Positions 9,432 to 27,968 of a stretch of 37,277 nt of DNA are shown in pieces. The position numbers and the translations under genes were made by a program. The notes below the pieces were generated by a model. That model did no database searches. It was not told where the DNA came from and saw only the letters and a list, made by a program, of their open reading frames with translations. Numbering within the stretch: position 1 is the first letter of the stretch; each line of letters begins with the position of its first letter. Source of the stretch: Paracoccaceae bacterium (lineage in GTDB: Bacteria; Pseudomonadota; Alphaproteobacteria; Rhodobacterales; Rhodobacteraceae); NCBI GenBank assembly GCA_024227755.1, contig JAAEUB010000461.1, forward strand, positions 1-37,277. The letters are read 5' to 3'.

Positions 9432-9572
9432 GTGAAAAGACGATTTAATAGGGTTTCAGGCGTCAACGCCCCGCCGCCGCGGCCGGATTGGCGCGGGTTC
9501 GTGATTGTTGGTCTGCTTTTGAGCGTTCCGGCCGCACTGGTCGGTTTCAGCGTCGATTTTCTGATGCGCTAG
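9432..9572 (+). CDS. Small single-TM membrane protein (46 aa), hypothetical; not in the supplied ORF track
   Basis: GTG start with AGGAG at 9421-9425; translation VKRRFNRVSGVNAPPPRPDWRGFVIVGLLLSVPAALVGFSVDFLMR; stop overlaps the gap stop on the other strand. Confidence 0.6.
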   Translation: MKRRFNRVSGVNAPPPRPDWRGFVIVGLLLSVPAALVGFSVDFLMR

Positions 9573-10567
9573 AGGTACTTGGCAATCACAGCCGCAGTAT
9601 CCAGCATACGGCAGGTAAAACCCCATTCATTGTCATACCAGGTCAGGATACGCACCATATTGCCATCCAGCACCCGTGTCTGGTCGGTGGCAAAATTGGA
9701 TGAGCTTGGGTCGTGGTTGAAGTCGATTGAGACCAGTTTGCGGTCGGTGACATCCAGAACATTCTTCATCGGGCCATCGACGGCGGCGTGAATGGCGGCG
9801 TTAATCTCCTCGACCGTAGTGTCACGCGCGGCTTCAAATGTCAGATCCACGCATGAGACGTTCGGGATCGGAACCCGCACTGCCATACCGTCCAGTTTAC
9901 CGTCCAGTTCAGGCAGAACCAGCCCAAGGGCCGAGGTAGCCCCGGTTGTGGTGGGGATCATGTTCATCGCCCCTGCGCGGGTGCGGTAGAGGTCTTTGTT
10001 GTTGGCGTCCAGCATCGGTTGCGAGCCGGTATAGGCGTGAATCGTGGTCATGAAACCGCGTTTTATCCCGACGCAATCGTTCAGTACTTTGACCACCGGG
10101 GCAAGACAATTGGTGGTGCATGAGGCGTTCGAGATATGGCGGTCTTCAGGCCCGATCAGGTGATGATTGACCCCGTAAACGATGGTTTGATCCGCGCCCT
10201 TGGATGGGGCCGATACCAGCACCCGTTTGGCACCGTTTTCAAGATGCACCAATGCCTTGTCGCCTTTGAAAACACCGGTGCATTCAAAAACGATGTCAAT
10301 GTCGCCCCAGGGAAGGTCGGCAGGGTTGCGCAAGGTAGTCATGCGAATCGGACCTGTGCCCACATCCATGCTGTCACCCGTGCAGGTTACCTTGTTCATG
10401 AACTTGCCGTGCACCGAATCGAACTCAAACAAATGTGCGCTGGTCTCGACCGGGGTCAGGTCGTTGATCGCTACAATCTCAATATCGTCGCGGCCAAGCT
10501 CATGCACTGCCCTTAAAACCAGACGCCCAATGCGCCCAAACCCATTGATTGCAACCTTGATCGCCAT
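9569..10567 (-). CDS. gap: Glyceraldehyde-3-phosphate dehydrogenase, type I (copy 1)
   Basis: MAIKVAINGFGRIGRLVLRA, SNASCTTNCLAPVVKVL (catalytic Cys), WYDNEWGFTCRMLD; start corrected to MAIKV. Confidence 0.96.
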   Translation of the reverse strand: MAIKVAINGFGRIGRLVLRAVHELGRDDIEIVAINDLTPVETSAHLFEFDSVHGKFMNKVTCTGDSMDVGTGPIRMTTLRNPADLPWGDIDIVFECTGVFKGDKALVHLENGAKRVLVSAPSKGADQTIVYGVNHHLIGPEDRHISNASCTTNCLAPVVKVLNDCVGIKRGFMTTIHAYTGSQPMLDANNKDLYRTRAGAMNMIPTTTGATSALGLVLPELDGKLDGMAVRVPIPNVSCVDLTFEAARDTTVEEINAAIHAAVDGPMKNVLDVTDRKLVSIDFNHDPSSSNFATDQTRVLDGNMVRILTWYDNEWGFTCRMLDTAAVIAKYL

Positions 10568-10993: not shown

Positions 10994-11995
10994 TTAGCCC
11001 AGCCGCCCCATCAGGGTGGCAACATCGGCCATGCGGGTCGAAAATCCCCATTCGTTGTCATACCAGGTCAAAATACGCACCAACCGCGCGCCCATCACCT
11101 TGGTCTGGTCGGGGGCAAAGGCCGAGCTTTGTTCGGTATGATTAAAATCGATCGAGACCTTGGGTTCCGGTTCATAGCTTATCACATGGCCCATCGAACC
11201 CGCGGCGGCCTTGCGCATAATCTCGTTGATTTCTTCAACACTGGTGTCGCGGCTTGCTGTGAACGTCAGATCAACCGCCGACACATTAGGCGTCGGCACG
11301 CGCAGGGCGGTCCCGTCAAGCTTGCCCTCAAGTTCCGGCAGGACAAGGCCTATTGCGCGGGCGGCCCCTGTCGAGGTCGGGATCAATGACATGGCAGCGG
11401 CGCGGGCGCGGTAAAGGTCCTTGTGGCGGCGATCCAGTGTCGGCTGCCCGCCAGTATATGAGTGGATCGTGGTCATGACGCCATGTTCAATCCCAACATT
11501 GTCGTTCAGAACCTTGGCAACCGGCGCCAGCCCATTGGTGGTGCATGACCCGTTTGAAACCAGGCGGTCGCTGGCCTCAAGCGTATTGTCATTGACGCCC
11601 AGAACGATGGTCTTGTCGACATTGGTCGCCGGGGCCGAGAAAAGGATTTTCTTTGCACCCTGCTCAAGATGCACCTTTGCTTTTTCGCCGTCATTGAACT
11701 TGCCGGTGCATTCCAGCACGACGTCACAGCCGGACCAGTCCAACTCGCTCGGGTCATAGGTTGATGACACTTTGACCACACCATCGCCTGCATCCAGTGT
11801 GCCGTCACCGATAATCACTTCATTGGGAAAGCGGCCATGCACGCTGTCATACCGCAAAAGATGCGCTGCACTTTCGATTGGGCCGGTGGCGTTCAGTTTG
11901 ACCACCTGAATGTCGTCGCGCCCCGAGCCTGCGATCTGACTGAACGTGCTGCGTCCGATCCGGCCAAAGCCGTTGATACCTACTTTTACCGTCAT
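10994..11995 (-). CDS. gap: Glyceraldehyde-3-phosphate dehydrogenase, type I (copy 2)
   Basis: MTVKVGINGFGRIGRSTFSQ, SNGSCTTNGLAPVAKVL, WYDNEWGFSTRMAD; start corrected to MTVKV. Confidence 0.95.
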   Translation of the reverse strand: MTVKVGINGFGRIGRSTFSQIAGSGRDDIQVVKLNATGPIESAAHLLRYDSVHGRFPNEVIIGDGTLDAGDGVVKVSSTYDPSELDWSGCDVVLECTGKFNDGEKAKVHLEQGAKKILFSAPATNVDKTIVLGVNDNTLEASDRLVSNGSCTTNGLAPVAKVLNDNVGIEHGVMTTIHSYTGGQPTLDRRHKDLYRARAAAMSLIPTSTGAARAIGLVLPELEGKLDGTALRVPTPNVSAVDLTFTASRDTSVEEINEIMRKAAAGSMGHVISYEPEPKVSIDFNHTEQSSAFAPDQTKVMGARLVRILTWYDNEWGFSTRMADVATLMGRLG

Positions 11996-20087: not shown

Positions 20088-21905
20088 ATGGCGCGCGCGA
20101 CGATCACAACCACCAAGGCCCCAACCAGCGGATGGCGCACCATTAAGCGTGTCGCCCCATATCTGTGGCCAGCCGAACATCCCTGGGTGAAAAACCGCGT
20201 GGTTCTGGCAATGGCGATGTTGCTTTTGTCCAAGTTGGTTTCGGTCGGGACGCCGTTCCTTTACAAGGCGGCAGTGGACGCTTTGTCAGGCGACGCGCTG
20301 GACGCTGCCTGGATGCTGGGGCTTGGTGCGGTTGGGCTGACGGTTGCCTATGGCGGCGCACGTCTGATGACCAATGGATTTCAGCAATTGCGTGACGCGG
20401 TATTTGCCCGGGTTGGCCAGCGTGCCCTCAGGCAATTGGCGCTGGAAACCTTCACCCATATTCACCGGCTTTCGATGCGATATCACATCACCCGCAAAAC
20501 CGGTGGGCTAAGCCGGATAATCGAGCGTGGGGTCAAGGGCGTCGAGTTTCTTTTGCGTTTCATGCTGTTTTCCATTGGCCCGCTGGTGTTGGAACTTTTG
20601 ATGATCGCCACGGTGCTGTTTTTCGTCTTTGACGTCTGGTATCTGGCCGCCGTGGTGGTGACCATCGCGCTTTATGTCTGGTTCACTTTCAAGGTCACCG
20701 AGTGGCGCGTGAAGATCCGCAAACAGATGAACGATCAGGATACCGACGCTAATCAAAAGGCCATCGACAGCCTTTTGAATTTTGAAACCGTCAAGTATTT
20801 CGGTGCCGAACGGCGCGAGGCCATTCGCTATGACAGTGCAATGGCGGGATATGAGACGGCAGCGCTTAAAACCTCGTATTCATTAGCCTTTCTCAATTTC
20901 GGCCAAGCGCTGTTGATTACATCCGGGCTGGTTGTGGTGATGGTGATGGCAGCCATTGGTGTGCAAAACGGCGACCTTACGGTTGGCGATTTCGTCATGG
21001 TCAACGCCTATATGGTGCAGATCACCATGCCTCTGAACTTCCTTGGGTCGGTCTACCGCGAAATCCGTCAGGCGCTTGTCGATATGGGCGAGATGTTTGA
21101 CCTGTTGGAGCAACCGGCCGAGGTTGAGGATAAGCCGGATGCGCCCGAGATTAAGGTCACGGGTGGCGAGGTGGTGCTGGAGGATGTGTTTTTTGGCTAT
21201 GACGCGGCGCGCCCGATCCTAAAAGGTGTGTCTTTGTCGGTCGGCGCGGGTAAAACCATGGCCATCGTTGGCCCGTCGGGGTCTGGTAAATCCACCATCG
21301 GGCGGCTTTTGTTCCGGTTTTACGACGTCAATGGCGGTGCCCTTCGGATAGACGGGCAGGATCTGCGTGATGTGACCCAGGAAAGCCTGCATAACAGCAT
21401 CGGTGTGGTACCGCAGGACACGGTTTTGTTTAACGATACGATTTATTACAACATCGCCTATGGTCGGCCTGAGGCCAGCCGCAGCGAGATCGAAGAGGCC
21501 GCAAAGGCCGCCAAAATCCACGACTTCATTGTCAGCCTGCCGGACGGGTACGAGACCACGGTGGGTGAACGCGGGTTGAAATTGTCAGGCGGCGAAAAGC
21601 AACGGGTTGGCATTGCCCGAACGCTGCTTAAAAACCCGCCGATCCTGCTTTTGGACGAGGCGACATCGGCGCTGGATAGCGAGACCGAGCGCGATATACA
21701 GGTAAGCCTGAAGGCGATGGGCAAGGGGCGATCTGTGATTACTATTGCCCACCGTCTGTCGACAATTGCCGACGCGGACGAGATCGTGGTGCTGGAAAAC
21801 GGTGTTATTACCGAACAGGGACGCCATGACGATCTGCTGGCACTGGGCGGGCGCTATAATTCCATGTGGACACGTCAGGCGGCAGAGGAACAAGAGGCGG
21901 CGTAG
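20088..21905 (+). CDS. Atm1/ABCB7-type ABC exporter (fused TMD-NBD)
   Basis: YHITRKTGGLSRIIERGVKG, NFETVKYFGAERRE, VGPSGSGKSTIGRLLFRFYD, LSGGEKQRVGIARTLLKNPPILLLDEATSALD; start corrected to MARATITT. Confidence 0.93.
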   Translation: MARATITTTKAPTSGWRTIKRVAPYLWPAEHPWVKNRVVLAMAMLLLSKLVSVGTPFLYKAAVDALSGDALDAAWMLGLGAVGLTVAYGGARLMTNGFQQLRDAVFARVGQRALRQLALETFTHIHRLSMRYHITRKTGGLSRIIERGVKGVEFLLRFMLFSIGPLVLELLMIATVLFFVFDVWYLAAVVVTIALYVWFTFKVTEWRVKIRKQMNDQDTDANQKAIDSLLNFETVKYFGAERREAIRYDSAMAGYETAALKTSYSLAFLNFGQALLITSGLVVVMVMAAIGVQNGDLTVGDFVMVNAYMVQITMPLNFLGSVYREIRQALVDMGEMFDLLEQPAEVEDKPDAPEIKVTGGEVVLEDVFFGYDAARPILKGVSLSVGAGKTMAIVGPSGSGKSTIGRLLFRFYDVNGGALRIDGQDLRDVTQESLHNSIGVVPQDTVLFNDTIYYNIAYGRPEASRSEIEEAAKAAKIHDFIVSLPDGYETTVGERGLKLSGGEKQRVGIARTLLKNPPILLLDEATSALDSETERDIQVSLKAMGKGRSVITIAHRLSTIADADEIVVLENGVITEQGRHDDLLALGGRYNSMWTRQAAEEQEAA

Positions 21906-21950: not shown

Positions 21951-21980
21951 ACCCGCACCATTGATCGGTGCGGGTCTGTT
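21951..21980 (+). terminator. Putative terminator of the ABC exporter gene
   Basis: ACCCGCACC-ATTGATC-GGTGCGGGT then CTGTTTG; weak T-tract. Confidence 0.6.
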
Positions 21981-22058
21981 TGGGTATCTGCGTCTCAGGA
22001 AAAAAGGCTTAGTGCGCCGTCCTGAAAATCTGAATCACTTCAGAAGCTGGGAACGGGG

Positions 22059-22105
22059 GAAAGCGGTTTCGAAACCGCTTTCTCAAGGCGTTTCGAAACG
22101 CCTTG
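22059..22105. repeat. Two adjacent perfect palindromes with a shared GTTTCGAAAC core
   Basis: GAAAGCGGTTTCGAAACCGCTTTC (22059-22082) and CAAGGCGTTTCGAAACGCCTTG (22084-22105), 1 nt apart, in a convergent intergenic region. Confidence 0.9.
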
Positions 22106-22209
22106 TCCCGGTTCAGATTAAAAGGACGCGGCTCTAAAGAAACTGAGCGCCTTTGGCGCGCTTTCTTATCTCGTCGGCGGCCTTCTCCTCATGCCGCGCG
22201 GCCTAGATG

Positions 22210-25200
22210 TTACTCGGCAGCTTTCAGCGGGTTACCCTCGTCTGAAGGTGATACCGGCCCGTCCGATTCATATGCGTCCGACAGGGGGTCTGGCGTCGGT
22301 TTTGACGCCGTGTCTGCCGGTGCATCCGACGCGGTGTCACTGCTTGTGTCGGTTGCGTGTGTCGTATCATCCGCGATTGTGGTGGCCGATATGACTTTTT
22401 GCAGATCTGCCAGTGCTGGTCCGACCTCGCCTTCATCCTCTATCGGGGCTGCGTCTTCCTCTTCTTCAAAGGTCTCGGCGAAGTCCCAGACAATTTCGGA
22501 CACTTTATGGCGTCGTGCGGCGCGACCGAGGGCGATATCGCGCGCCGTGCGCCCCTTGAGACCGGTGGAAAGTGCTGTCAGTCCACGCAGGGATTTGTAA
22601 GCCCCGGCTGAAACCCAGACCCTGAGTGCCAGCATTGAAGGAGTGAAGACAAGTGTCAGCACTGTAGCGATGCCAAGCCCGAACACCACCGCAGTGGCCA
22701 GTTGTTTCCACCAAAGCGCGGTTGGGGCGTCGATCGAATAGCCGCCGTTGAAAAAGTCGAGTGACAGGCCGAACATCATCGGTGCAAGCCCGGCCATTGT
22801 GGTGATCGTGGTCAACAGCACCGGGCGGATTCGGGCCTCGGCGGTGCGGGTGATCGCTTCAAGGCGCGGCATGTAGCGTGAATAGTCCTGATAGGTATCA
22901 ATTAGTACGATGTTGTTATTGACCACAATCCCGGCCAGGGCCACCACCCCGGTTCCGGTCATGATGATCGAAAATGGCTGTGCCATTACCAGCATTCCCA
23001 CCAGAACACCGGTGGTGGACAGGATTACCGCCAGCAACACCAGTACCGAGTTATAAAGCGAGTTGAACTGTGCCAGCAGGATGATGAACATAAGGAAAAG
23101 TGCGCCGATGAAGGCCTGGCCAAGGAAGGCCATGCTTTCGTTCTGTTCCTCCTGATCACCGGTCCATTCATGTTCGATACCATCGGCAAAGGGGCCGGTA
23201 TCGAGCCATTTGGTCAAAAAGGTGATGCGTTCGTCCGGGGTGACTGGCGTGCTTATGTAATCCGAGCTGTATTCGCCCTGTGTCAGCTCTTCGGCCTCGG
23301 CTTTGGTGACCACCTGGATTTCTCCGCTGGAGGTATGTTCAAGGCGTACAAGGTCAGGCGCTACTGCGGCTTTGACATCAAAATAGCGCATCTGATCGAC
23401 CCGGTTGATCTGCGCCAGGGTTGGCACCGGTTTGCGGGTGACGAAGTTTGACAGTGGCACAAGCCCGGCCGGGGTGCGCAGTTTCAGCGTATCGAGGGTG
23501 GACAGCACCCGGTCTTCTACGGGCAGGCGCACGCGGATTTCGATCTCTTCGTCCGAGGTATCGACCCGCATTGTATCAAGCAGCAGGCCGGTGGTTACCA
23601 GCTGCACCATGCCGCCGACTGTGGCCACATCGGTGCCGTAGCGTCCGGCTTTTTCCACGTCGACCTGAAGCTCCCAGTCGATACCGGGCAGGGGGCGGGT
23701 GTCTTCGACGTCGGCCAGACCTGCCGTTGTCTCAAAACGCCCGGCGGCGATGGTGGCGGCAGACAAAAGGTCATCCCAGTTCTGGCCCTTGAGGCGCAGA
23801 TGCACGGGCTTGGCCGAGGCCGGGCCGCGCGCCAAGTTAAGCACCTCAAAGCGCACACCGGGCAGAGTGGAAAGCCGCTCTTCCAGACGTACCATGACCA
23901 CGTCGCCGTCAAATTCAGGGTCAACAATTGTACGCGTGAAGGGGATGAAACCTAAAAGCTTGATCTCTTCGCTGATATGCGGGCGGTCGTCCCATGCGAC
24001 CATTTCGATCTGCACCTGGCCGATCGTGTCGCGCGGACCCGAAGCACCGCCGGTGTTTTGGTTCAGACCGCCAGCACCGGAAAAAGCGAATGTGCTTTCT
24101 ATGCCCTGAGTGGCAATAGCCACCGCTTCGACCTCGGCCACCAACGCGTCTTTTTCTTCCAGCGAAAGGTTGCCGCGGGCGCGTACATAGATGATCGCCT
24201 GCTCAGGTTCGGTTTCGGCAAAAAACTCGGTGCCGTGGTTGTTGGCAACAAAGGTTACAAAAATGAAACCGACAAAGCCCAAAACCGCGGCGATGGCGAC
24301 AATCGGCATCACCGGATTGCCTGAAATCAGGTGGATTACCCAACCAAAGGGCGACCGGCGATAGCCCGCCGTGACACGTTTTTTGCGGATTTTGATGCGT
24401 GCTGCACCCAAGGTGATGGTAAGCAGTGAGGTCGCAACCACAAACAATACCGCCCCCGGCAAGATCGCCAAGCCGCCATCAAAAGGGTTTTGTACGCCCA
24501 GCACTGAAAACACGTATTCCGGGTTCAAAAGCTGCATACCGGACATGAAGACCAGATAGGCTGCAGGCAGCACCAGGACGGCGCGGACCAGCCAGGGCAG
24601 GGGGCGCAGGGCGTCTGAGATACGCTGGAATAGGACGCTGATACGGCCCGAAAGGCCGCCCATTACCGGCAGATAAATCAGCGCCACAAGCAGGCTGGCG
24701 GTCAGCACATAGATCATGGTTTTAGGAAGCATCCCCATGAACTCACCGGGGATACCGGGCCAAAACAGCATTGGCAGGAAGGCGCAAAGCGTAGTCGCGG
24801 TCGAACTGACGATGGGCCAGAACATGCGTTGGGCGGCAGCCACATATGCCTTCATCGGGCCCATGCCATCGCGTATGCGTTTGTCGGCGTATTCAACCAC
24901 CACGATGGCACCGTCGACCAGCATACCGACCGCCAGTATCAGGCCAAACATTACGATGTTTGAGATGGTCACGCCCAAAGCGCCAAACAGGGCGAAGGTC
25001 AGCAGGAACGAGGTCGGAATGGCGAACCCGACCAGCAGCGCCGAGCGGATACCAAGGCTGGCCAGGACAACGATCATCACCAGCGCGATGGCGGTTATTA
25101 CCGAGCCTTCAAGCTGGCGCACCATGCTGCCGACGACGAAGGATTGATCGTTTGATGTGCCGACCTTCACGGCTTGTCTGAGCTCGGCCGGCCATGACAG

Positions 25201-26118
25201 GCGTTCCTCCTCAACCGCCGCGCGGATCAGGGCGGCTGTGTCGATCAGGTTAAAGCCTTTACGTTTGGAGACCTGTAAGGCCAGCGTGGTTTCACCGTTA
25301 AAACGGGCCGAGCCGGTGCGGTCCTGAAAGGTCAGGCGGATGGTCGCCAGATCGCCCAGCGTAACCACGCTGTCGCCATTGACCTTGACTGGCAGGTTGT
25401 AGACGTCGGTAACTTCGTCAAAGGACGATGGGATTTTAACCGATATTGCCCCGGTCGGCGTGGTCACTTCCCCGGCTGCGATCAGTTGATTGTTGTTGCG
25501 CACCACATTGATCAACTCGCCTGCTGTGACGTTGTACGCCTCAAGCCTGAGCGGATCGATCACCACTTCCAGCATTTCCTCGCGGTAACCCGTCAGCGAG
25601 GCATCAAGTACCGCGTCGATGCCTTCCAACCTGTCCTGCATCTTCTGCGCCAGACGGATTAGCGTCCGTTCGGGCACATTGCCCGAAAGATTTACCACGA
25701 TGATGGGAAATTCCGAGAAGTTGATCTCGGTCACCTGATATTTGTCGGCCCCGTCCGGTAAGTCACCCTCGACCCCGTTCATGGCGTCGCGCACATCGGC
25801 AATGACGCTGGTTTTGTCCCAATTGAAGTCAAACTCAAGCAGCAAGCCAGCATAGTTTTCCGATGCCGTGCCTGACATTTCTTTCAGGCCTTCAACATCG
25901 GCCATCGCCGTTTCCATCGGCTTGAGCAATATGCGTTCGGCGTCAGCGGCGGATATTCCCGGAAACGGCACCGACACAAACAGCATCGGTATTTCGATAT
26001 CCGGCTCGCCTTCCTTTGGCAGGCTGACATAGGCAACCGCCCCTGCCAGAACTGACAGGATAATAAAGGCCATGACCATGCGCGCCCGAGAGGCGGCGAT
26101 TTCGACAATGCGGATCAT
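22210..26118 (-). CDS. RND efflux transporter permease (AcrB/AcrD/AcrF-like)
   Basis: MIRIVEIAASRARMVMAFIILSVLAGAVAYVSLPKEGEPDIEIP, LILAVGMLVDGAIVVVEYAD, VVALAGIVVNNNIVLIDTYQ; 1302 aa with acidic C-terminal extension. Confidence 0.94.
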   Translation of the reverse strand: MIRIVEIAASRARMVMAFIILSVLAGAVAYVSLPKEGEPDIEIPMLFVSVPFPGISAADAERILLKPMETAMADVEGLKEMSGTASENYAGLLLEFDFNWDKTSVIADVRDAMNGVEGDLPDGADKYQVTEINFSEFPIIVVNLSGNVPERTLIRLAQKMQDRLEGIDAVLDASLTGYREEMLEVVIDPLRLEAYNVTAGELINVVRNNNQLIAAGEVTTPTGAISVKIPSSFDEVTDVYNLPVKVNGDSVVTLGDLATIRLTFQDRTGSARFNGETTLALQVSKRKGFNLIDTAALIRAAVEEERLSWPAELRQAVKVGTSNDQSFVVGSMVRQLEGSVITAIALVMIVVLASLGIRSALLVGFAIPTSFLLTFALFGALGVTISNIVMFGLILAVGMLVDGAIVVVEYADKRIRDGMGPMKAYVAAAQRMFWPIVSSTATTLCAFLPMLFWPGIPGEFMGMLPKTMIYVLTASLLVALIYLPVMGGLSGRISVLFQRISDALRPLPWLVRAVLVLPAAYLVFMSGMQLLNPEYVFSVLGVQNPFDGGLAILPGAVLFVVATSLLTITLGAARIKIRKKRVTAGYRRSPFGWVIHLISGNPVMPIVAIAAVLGFVGFIFVTFVANNHGTEFFAETEPEQAIIYVRARGNLSLEEKDALVAEVEAVAIATQGIESTFAFSGAGGLNQNTGGASGPRDTIGQVQIEMVAWDDRPHISEEIKLLGFIPFTRTIVDPEFDGDVVMVRLEERLSTLPGVRFEVLNLARGPASAKPVHLRLKGQNWDDLLSAATIAAGRFETTAGLADVEDTRPLPGIDWELQVDVEKAGRYGTDVATVGGMVQLVTTGLLLDTMRVDTSDEEIEIRVRLPVEDRVLSTLDTLKLRTPAGLVPLSNFVTRKPVPTLAQINRVDQMRYFDVKAAVAPDLVRLEHTSSGEIQVVTKAEAEELTQGEYSSDYISTPVTPDERITFLTKWLDTGPFADGIEHEWTGDQEEQNESMAFLGQAFIGALFLMFIILLAQFNSLYNSVLVLLAVILSTTGVLVGMLVMAQPFSIIMTGTGVVALAGIVVNNNIVLIDTYQDYSRYMPRLEAITRTAEARIRPVLLTTITTMAGLAPMMFGLSLDFFNGGYSIDAPTALWWKQLATAVVFGLGIATVLTLVFTPSMLALRVWVSAGAYKSLRGLTALSTGLKGRTARDIALGRAARRHKVSEIVWDFAETFEEEEDAAPIEDEGEVGPALADLQKVISATTIADDTTHATDTSSDTASDAPADTASKPTPDPLSDAYESDGPVSPSDEGNPLKAAE

Positions 26119-27968
26119 GCTTCAGGCTCGCGGTAAGTTACATCAAGTGCAACCCCGTCGGTAACATATTCCTGACCTGTAACTATTACCTCGGCATTTT
26201 CGGGCAGGCCTGAAACCCATACGCCCTCTAACGCATCACGGATCAGGTCAACCGGCATGAAAAGCGCTCTGCTTGCGCTGTCGACGACACGCACGCCCAG
26301 ATTGCCTTCGTCATCCAGTGTCAGCGACGATTGCGGCAGCAAATGCGCCTGACGCCCGTCTGAAGCGATCAGGATCTCGACCGTCAGACCGTCGCTGACT
26401 GACTTGTCTGTGTTATCGACCTCGATCTCGACCCGAAAGGTGCGCGTTAGCGGGTCTGAGACACGCGACACGAAGGTCACCAGCCCGACCAGATCGCGCC
26501 CGTTGTTCAGGCGTCCACCGGCCATGACACCATTTTGCACCTTGTCGATGTCGATTTCGGGTACAAAACCCACCAGCTTAATCGGGTCGATCTGAACGAT
26601 GGTGGCGCAAAGCCCGCCAGGTTGCAGCAGGCTACCAATTTCCGCGGTGTCGGTTTCCAAAAGCCCTGCGAATGGCGCACGGATTTCCAAACGGGTGATT
26701 TCAAGCCGGGCGGCAGCGACACTGGCCTCGGCTGATTGCATACCTGCCTTGGCGTTCTCGACCAGCGAGCGGGCTGACTGTACACCGGCAGAAGCGCCTT
26801 CAACCTGACTATTTGCCGATTGCACGCCCGCTAGGGCTGCTTCGATCTGGCTTCTGGCCGATTGCACCCCGGCAACGGCGCCTTCGACCTGGCTTTTGGC
26901 CGATTGAATTCCGGCTTTTGCACCCTCAACCTGACTTATAGCCGATTGCACCCCGGCCTTCGCGCCTTCGATCTGGCTTTTCGCCGATTGCACCCCAGCC
27001 AGTGCACCGTCAATCTGGCTTTTCGCCGATTGCACCCCGGCGCGGGCACTTTCGAGCTGTGAGAGGGCATTTTTAAGCCCTGCACGTGCAGAAACCAACG
27101 TTGCCAGCGCATTGGCCACGCGGGTTTCCGAGGCAAAGCCGCCTTCGCCCAGTTTCACGGCAGCGTTATAGTTGATTTCGGCTTCGCTAATACGCGCCTC
27201 GGCCTCGGCCACCCCAGCTTCTGAGGCGGCGGGCCGTGTCTTGGCTTCGGCGAGCGATGCCTCGGCGGCGGTGACGCGGCTTAGGGCTTCGGCCAAGGCC
27301 GCTTCCATTGCCGGTACCCGACTTTTTGCTTCTTCCAGCGCCGCTTCGGCGGCTGGTACCCGGCTTTTTGCTTCCACTAACGCCGCTTCGGTTGCCGGCA
27401 CCCGGCTGAGTGCTTCGGCCAGGGCGGCCTCGGTCGCTGGTACCTGGCTTTTTGCCTGGGCAAGGGACGCGTTCATCGCGGGCACCCGGCTTTGCGCTTC
27501 TGCCAGCTTGGCTTCGGCTTCGGGAATGCGTGTCTTGGCCTCGGCCAAGCGCGCCAATGCCTCGGCCAGACTGGCCTCGCGGGTGCCAGGATCAAGCTGG
27601 CAAAGAAGATCTCCGTGCGCCACCTTGGTTCCCTTACGCAGGGGATCTGACATTACCTTACCCGAGGTTTCGGCCTTCATCACGACCTGCCGCGAAGCTT
27701 CCGTCCGCCCGCGCAAAAGAACTGCGCTGTCAATATTGCGTGCCGTGCTTTTCAGAGCGATCACCGACACTAGGGTGGTGTCATCGCTCGCTGCGGCATC
27801 CGCCGTGGCGTCTGTTTGCGGGGCGGTATCACCTTGTGCGCCATCACTTTCCCCATCCACCTGCGCGACACCGCCACGGGCAAAATCGAACGCCCGTTCA
27901 CGTTCAAAAATCAAAATGTAAAGACTGGTGATCACCAGTATTGCACTCAGAATTGAGACTACCCGCAT
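26115..27968 (-). CDS. RND/HlyD-family periplasmic adaptor (membrane fusion protein) with expanded repeat hairpin
   Basis: N-terminal anchor, VVMKAETSGKV...KVAHGDLLCQLD lipoyl half, LEIRAPFAGLLETDTAEIGSLLQPGG second half; ATGA overlap with the permease start. Confidence 0.92.
   Translation of the reverse strand: MRVVSILSAILVITSLYILIFERERAFDFARGGVAQVDGESDGAQGDTAPQTDATADAAASDDTTLVSVIALKSTARNIDSAVLLRGRTEASRQVVMKAETSGKVMSDPLRKGTKVAHGDLLCQLDPGTREASLAEALARLAEAKTRIPEAEAKLAEAQSRVPAMNASLAQAKSQVPATEAALAEALSRVPATEAALVEAKSRVPAAEAALEEAKSRVPAMEAALAEALSRVTAAEASLAEAKTRPAASEAGVAEAEARISEAEINYNAAVKLGEGGFASETRVANALATLVSARAGLKNALSQLESARAGVQSAKSQIDGALAGVQSAKSQIEGAKAGVQSAISQVEGAKAGIQSAKSQVEGAVAGVQSARSQIEAALAGVQSANSQVEGASAGVQSARSLVENAKAGMQSAEASVAAARLEITRLEIRAPFAGLLETDTAEIGSLLQPGGLCATIVQIDPIKLVGFVPEIDIDKVQNGVMAGGRLNNGRDLVGLVTFVSRVSDPLTRTFRVEIEVDNTDKSVSDGLTVEILIASDGRQAHLLPQSSLTLDDEGNLGVRVVDSASRALFMPVDLIRDALEGVWVSGLPENAEVIVTGQEYVTDGVALDVTYREPEA
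26712..27089 (-). repeat. Nine tandem 14-codon repeats, consensus AxAGVQSAKSQVEG (descending arm)
   Basis: Residues 294-419 of the adaptor; period 42 bp. Confidence 0.93.
27186..27563 (-). repeat. Nine tandem 14-codon repeats, consensus AxEAALAEAKSRVP (ascending arm)
   Basis: Residues 136-261 of the adaptor; prolines at residues 149, 163, 177, 191, 205 and 219. Confidence 0.93.

Follow-up and report, generated by a model that had tools for sequence, protein, structure and literature searches.

REP, BIME and REPIN elements associated with RAYT transposases are short palindromes dispersed outside genes in tens of copies, often in pairs and away from promoters, and the palindrome arrays described here resemble them in all of these respects. 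Unlike those elements, the arrays carry no GTAG tag, occur mostly in genomes without a RAYT gene, have perfect symmetric stems, and hold two to five different palindromes per unit, with hairpin words that differ between genera. The CGTC-tagged REPs of Alphaproteobacteria are, according to the available text of PMC3733652, likewise palindromic repeats without a dedicated transposase, but the arrays lack the CGTC tag, and multi-palindrome arrays are not among the features described in that text. The arrays resemble MITEs to the extent that six copies in the genome studied here have terminal inverted repeats, with YTAR-like flanks, whereas no parent element was found for the arrays, those of other genomes lack long terminal repeats, and their palindromic interior outlasts the ends. 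Mitochondrial double-hairpin elements and hairpin repeats (PMC5910586, PMC2800124) also consist of adjacent hairpins in small dispersed intergenic elements; these are organellar and the arrays bacterial, and the likeness is one of form only, with no homology implied. We found no description of this array family in the open-access papers searched or in Rfam. The most suitable place for the arrays is as a new type within the REP/BIME-like palindromic repeats, outside the GTAG and CGTC superfamilies.

The window, meaning the whole stretch of 37,277 nt that was analysed (contig JAAEUB010000461.1 of assembly GCA_024227755.1), holds one such element between an ABC exporter gene (20088-21905, plus strand) and an RND efflux permease gene (22210-26118, minus strand). 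The two genes are convergent and end at 21905 and 22210, respectively; both were named by their best NCBIfam matches, which lie below the curated cut-offs. A preliminary description had reported two perfect palindromes between convergent genes; the palindromes are exactly as it stated, and the gene arrangement is confirmed. The locus is laid out as follows.

21951 to 21983, plus strand: hairpin with a 9-bp stem, a 7-nt loop and a T-rich tail (CTGTTTGG), the probable terminator of the ABC exporter gene.
22009 to 22012, plus strand: TTAG outside the left end, read from the sequence, a possible YTAR-type target and candidate target duplication.
22013 to 22133 (about 121 bp), no strand: whole element, terminal inverted repeats around two palindromes, with ends taken from aligned copies.
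22013 to 22034, plus strand: left terminal inverted repeat, TGCGCCGTCCTGAAAATCTGAA, pairing imperfectly with 22112 to 22133.
22051 to 22058, plus strand: left arm of the inner closing stem, GAACGGGG, pairing with 22107 to 22114 and covarying among this genome's copies.
22059 to 22082, no strand: palindrome A, GAAAGCGGTTTCGAAACCGCTTTC, perfect, with stem pairs that covary among copies.
22084 to 22105, no strand: palindrome B, CAAGGCGTTTCGAAACGCCTTG, perfect, with stem pairs that covary among copies.
22107 to 22114, plus strand: right arm of the inner closing stem, CCCGGTTC, pairing with 22051 to 22058 and covarying among this genome's copies.
22112 to 22133, minus strand: right terminal inverted repeat, reading AGCCGCGTCCTTTTAATCTGAA on that strand, with end-sequence matches in the genome.
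22134 to 22137, plus strand: CTAA outside the right end, read from the sequence.
22137 to 22159, minus strand: hairpin with a T-rich tail, the probable terminator of the RND gene, also present in congener L041.

The closing pairs belong to an imperfect terminal inverted repeat of greater length, in which 22013-22034 matches the reverse complement of 22112-22133. Apart from palindromes A and B, centred at 22070 and 22094, the 37-kb window has no palindrome of 20 bp or longer; first-order Markov windows contain a mean of 0.13 such palindromes each, and none of 30 such windows has more than one. Folded as RNA, positions 22040-22125 reach -37.7 kcal/mol (z = -4.5), a value equalled by none of 200 shuffles, and the single-stranded DNA fold of 22020-22140, which includes pairing of the flanks, gives z = -5.7. 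An Rfam 15 search returned no known structured RNA at the gathering score. Both hairpins with T-rich tails stand between a stop codon and the element, which places the element between two apparent terminators. At this locus, where each gene has its own apparent terminator ahead of the element, the copy may be simply tolerated. Elsewhere in the window, the RND periplasmic adaptor gene (26115-27968, minus strand) contains six copies of a 42-bp direct repeat (26731-27059), corresponding to a 14-residue repeat, and two similar adjacent genes (9569-10567 and 10994-11995) look like paralogous glyceraldehyde-3-phosphate dehydrogenases, judging from a WYDNEW motif read from their repeated sequence.

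The element is dispersed, as the preliminary description suspected when it suggested a REP/BIME-like unit. BLASTN of its own 539-contig draft genome with a 106-bp query yields 94 aligned pieces, which fall at about 40 places, and four further copies align across most of the 22013-22133 element at 87-92%. Six places match the end sequence within 3 mismatches, and all are copies of this element; in the remaining copies the palindromes are kept and the ends are unrecognisable or weak. No parent transposon with the same ends was found, the end sequence occurring in its own draft genome only at these elements. Among the aligned copies, one (L005) has CTAG at both sides and the others have YTAR-like flanks only. 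A degenerate half-site pattern finds 125 sites per strand in this genome, versus 38 for the reversed control pattern, and when read, these sites resolve into arrays in which as many as four palindromes, differing in their arms, follow one another.

The wider family comprises arrays of two to five tandem, perfect 20-bp palindromes, the centres of which lie 22-25 bp apart in nearly all cases and the core of which is TTCGAA in most and sometimes TTGCAA. In a sample of 92 arrays from 11 genomes, all nine outer pairs are intact in 219 of the 251 palindromes and one mismatch occurs in 26; mismatches number 2-7 per stem position, as against 25 at the central pair, where the hairpin loop falls. Each palindrome could form a hairpin with an 8- to 9-bp stem and a loop of about 4 nt. 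The same palindrome is never found twice within one of the 92 arrays, where random dealing of words within genomes expects 17.7 cases (minimum 8 in 500); common ancestry of the arrays in a single one whose words all differed would account for part of this non-repetition. Flanks across the 92 arrays are G-rich on the left and C-rich on the right; long terminal repeats were seen at the recognisable copies of this genome and not in the flanks of arrays from other genomes. A four-palindrome array (L192, 2945-3058) folds far below its shuffles (z -7.0), and its best predicted RNA fold pairs the first palindrome with the fourth around two inner hairpins; as modelled, independent hairpins are not the sole possible fold of a four-palindrome array. 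Genome G284 has three two-palindrome arrays in a row, 100-200 bp apart (L160 2752-3190, L161 2896-3148), and in L160 the DNA between the successive arrays is also partly repeated.

The distribution of the arrays is patchy and lineage-specific. A strict two-core pattern matches 15 of 299 Rhodobacteraceae genomes (Roseobacteraceae in the NCBI scheme), of which four have a single match and eight have seven or more matches on one strand; with the reversed control, three genomes give single matches, and the strict pattern has no match in about 380 sampled Alphaproteobacteria outside Rhodobacteraceae. Genome G298 has 63 strand-wise matches (about 33 arrays) versus none in the only congener compared. 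The genome of the window has dozens of copies; among its four congeners, the element occurs at a few places in two genomes and is missing from the other two. In genome G291, arrays immediately follow that genome's version of the ABC exporter gene. The preliminary description had looked both to further copies and to conservation in relatives: the copies exist, but no array was seen at this site in the relatives examined. Congener G004/L041 shares the convergent gene pair and the minus-strand terminator hairpin but not the array, an empty site, and no array stands at this site in the other Aliiroseovarius loci with a readable downstream region (L042, L044-L048). A phage or plasmid origin was rejected, the window array having no match in phages or plasmids. 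The strict pattern also matches 66 viral contigs, most of them through a different AAGCCCCTTCGAAG direct repeat or as single chance matches, and one viral contig (L261) carries an array like those of G298. In many viral contigs (among L216-L281) the different repeat has its AAGCCCCTTCGAAG cores in direct repetition, often beside a short repeat of the GGAACA/GGAGCA type.

Arrays lie at the 3' ends of genes. Gene contexts were taken from a home-made gene finder with GC3-based training, which agrees with the RefSeq-annotated plasmid p-SCP4 of Ponticoccus alexandrii, where two annotated genes converge on an array of two palindromes. In ten other genomes, the 53 array-bearing gaps comprise 26 convergent, 26 co-directional and 1 divergent, compared with 13, 85 and 42, respectively, among 140 other gaps of at least 40 nt; convergent gaps are enriched (p = 7e-9) and divergent gaps depleted (p = 4e-6). 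In the genome of the window, 19 of 30 array gaps are convergent versus 5 of 46 other gaps (p = 2e-6), and none is divergent, which bears out the suspected preference for convergent genes. The median distance from stop codon to array edge is 20 nt in the other genomes and 48 nt in this one, and in several convergent pairs, including L151, L155 and L172, the array fills the whole gap between the stops. Placement behind stop codons alone also fits insertion tolerance.

From sequence comparison, we consider it about an even call that the arrays are REP/BIME-like repeats that were once mobile independently of RAYTs and have been kept at the 3' ends of genes, where the hairpin clusters may shield or delimit mRNA 3' ends. 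The units would have spread as non-autonomous elements by a transposase, and copies would survive where they are least harmful, behind stop codons. Since a palindrome has an identical sequence on each strand, transcripts arriving from either side would end in a hairpin cluster, which probably blocks 3'-to-5' decay or helps fix Rho-made 3' ends, and the array would separate convergent transcription. By analogy with REPs within 15 nt of a stop codon, which are reported to stall ribosomes (as cited in the available text of PMC12306157), ribosome stalling is another possible effect.

The preliminary description proposed that structure is maintained while arm sequences change, and the copies agree with this. 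Since the detection of the 92 arrays demands near-perfect pairing, covariation was tested on 28 copies picked by BLAST similarity alone (one further BLAST-chosen copy, with an indel, was omitted). In these, 98.4% of stem cells pair, and two-sided changes occur in 8 of 18 stem pairs, versus 0.9 (sd 0.8) in shuffled data and 0-2 in slid registers. Because pairing is kept and changes are two-sided, it is the hairpin, and not one sequence, that is conserved. A junction closed by the flanks had also been suggested. It is clear in this genome's copies, where the closing stem covaries in its own register, but over the 92 arrays the flanks pair with their own partner no better than with shuffled partners, beyond the G-left/C-right bias, and a universal closing junction was rejected.

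Perfect pairing is no proof of selection, because template switching can produce it, including two-sided changes; according to the available text of PMC8794818, this process can create and maintain hairpins. The arrays could then be selfish or neutral MITE-like repeats, tolerated between genes, whose palindromes owe their perfect state to template-switch (quasipalindrome) repair instead of selection. The terminal inverted repeats of this genome's copies, with their YTAR-like flanks, fit such an origin, as do the lineage-specific bursts of copies, the empty site in the congener and the position of the window element outside both terminators. We nevertheless regard it as rather unlikely, since arrays often fill the whole space between convergent stops, and since words that are constant within a genome, set against near-random spacers and flanks, are impossible for template switching within one palindrome.

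This contrast is seen in genomes G298 and G026. The spacer between the first two palindromes, with an inner identity of 0.34 and 0.33, is close to random, as are the flanks (identity 0.28-0.29 beyond 12 nt), yet the second palindrome is 0.96 and 0.92 identical among arrays; because the choice of these arrays relied on their first palindrome and on palindromicity, the contrast between words and spacers is somewhat biased. Constant words with near-random spacers are accounted for neither by decay after copying nor by repair within a palindrome, and simple copy-and-decay with selection on pairing alone fails to explain the contrast in these two genomes. It is conceivable, if doubtful, that the arrays form a distinct bacterial element class, in which lineage-specific palindrome sets would be written or copied as words with non-templated spacers and recognised by a factor that differs between lineages. 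Constant words and near-random spacers are seen at L199-L206 and L297-L312 in G298, and at L191-L198 and L314-L325 in G026.

A DNA-level element bound by a nucleoid protein, gyrase or partition factor would make use of the repeated TTCGAA cores, and their presence in most palindromes, the regular spacing and the constancy of words within a genome could be read in this way. We think this improbable, as the arms vary widely between and within arrays while pairing is kept, the 22-25 bp spacing sets palindromes on different helical faces, and placement depends strongly on gene orientation. The position behind stop codons and between convergent genes would also suit bidirectional intrinsic transcription terminators, in line with the transcript-end structure that had been considered at the outset. 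We give this very little credence: it is largely refuted by the missing U-tract, since on either strand the 8 nt that follow the last hairpin contain 1.3 T on average, with at least 5 T at only 3 of 184 array edges, and conventional terminators stand beside some arrays. Spread of a classical REP/BIME or REPIN by a RAYT transposase, which the short, dispersed, often paired extragenic palindromes recall and which the preliminary description had raised, is scarcely credible, because the RAYT gene (Y1_Tnp, PF01797) is absent from this 90%-complete genome and from 9 of the 11 array-bearing genomes, GTAG and GGAG occur at the hairpin foot at 1 and 1 of the 184 edges, and the stems are perfect and symmetric. 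CGTC, sought as an unpaired tag beside the stem, occurs within 12 nt in any position at 10 of the 184 edges, with no clear excess, and both the RAYT association and the GTAG and CGTC tags were rejected on these gene and tag searches.

If this reading of the arrays as once-mobile repeats, independent of RAYTs and kept behind genes, is right, they would represent a REP-like class that spreads without RAYTs. The dozens of multi-hairpin units behind stop codons would then be natural experiments, with array-rich and array-free species in one genus. It would become testable what mobilises palindromic repeats that lack RAYTs, and whether a hairpin cluster lying between convergent genes has an effect on mRNA ends or is just tolerated in that position.
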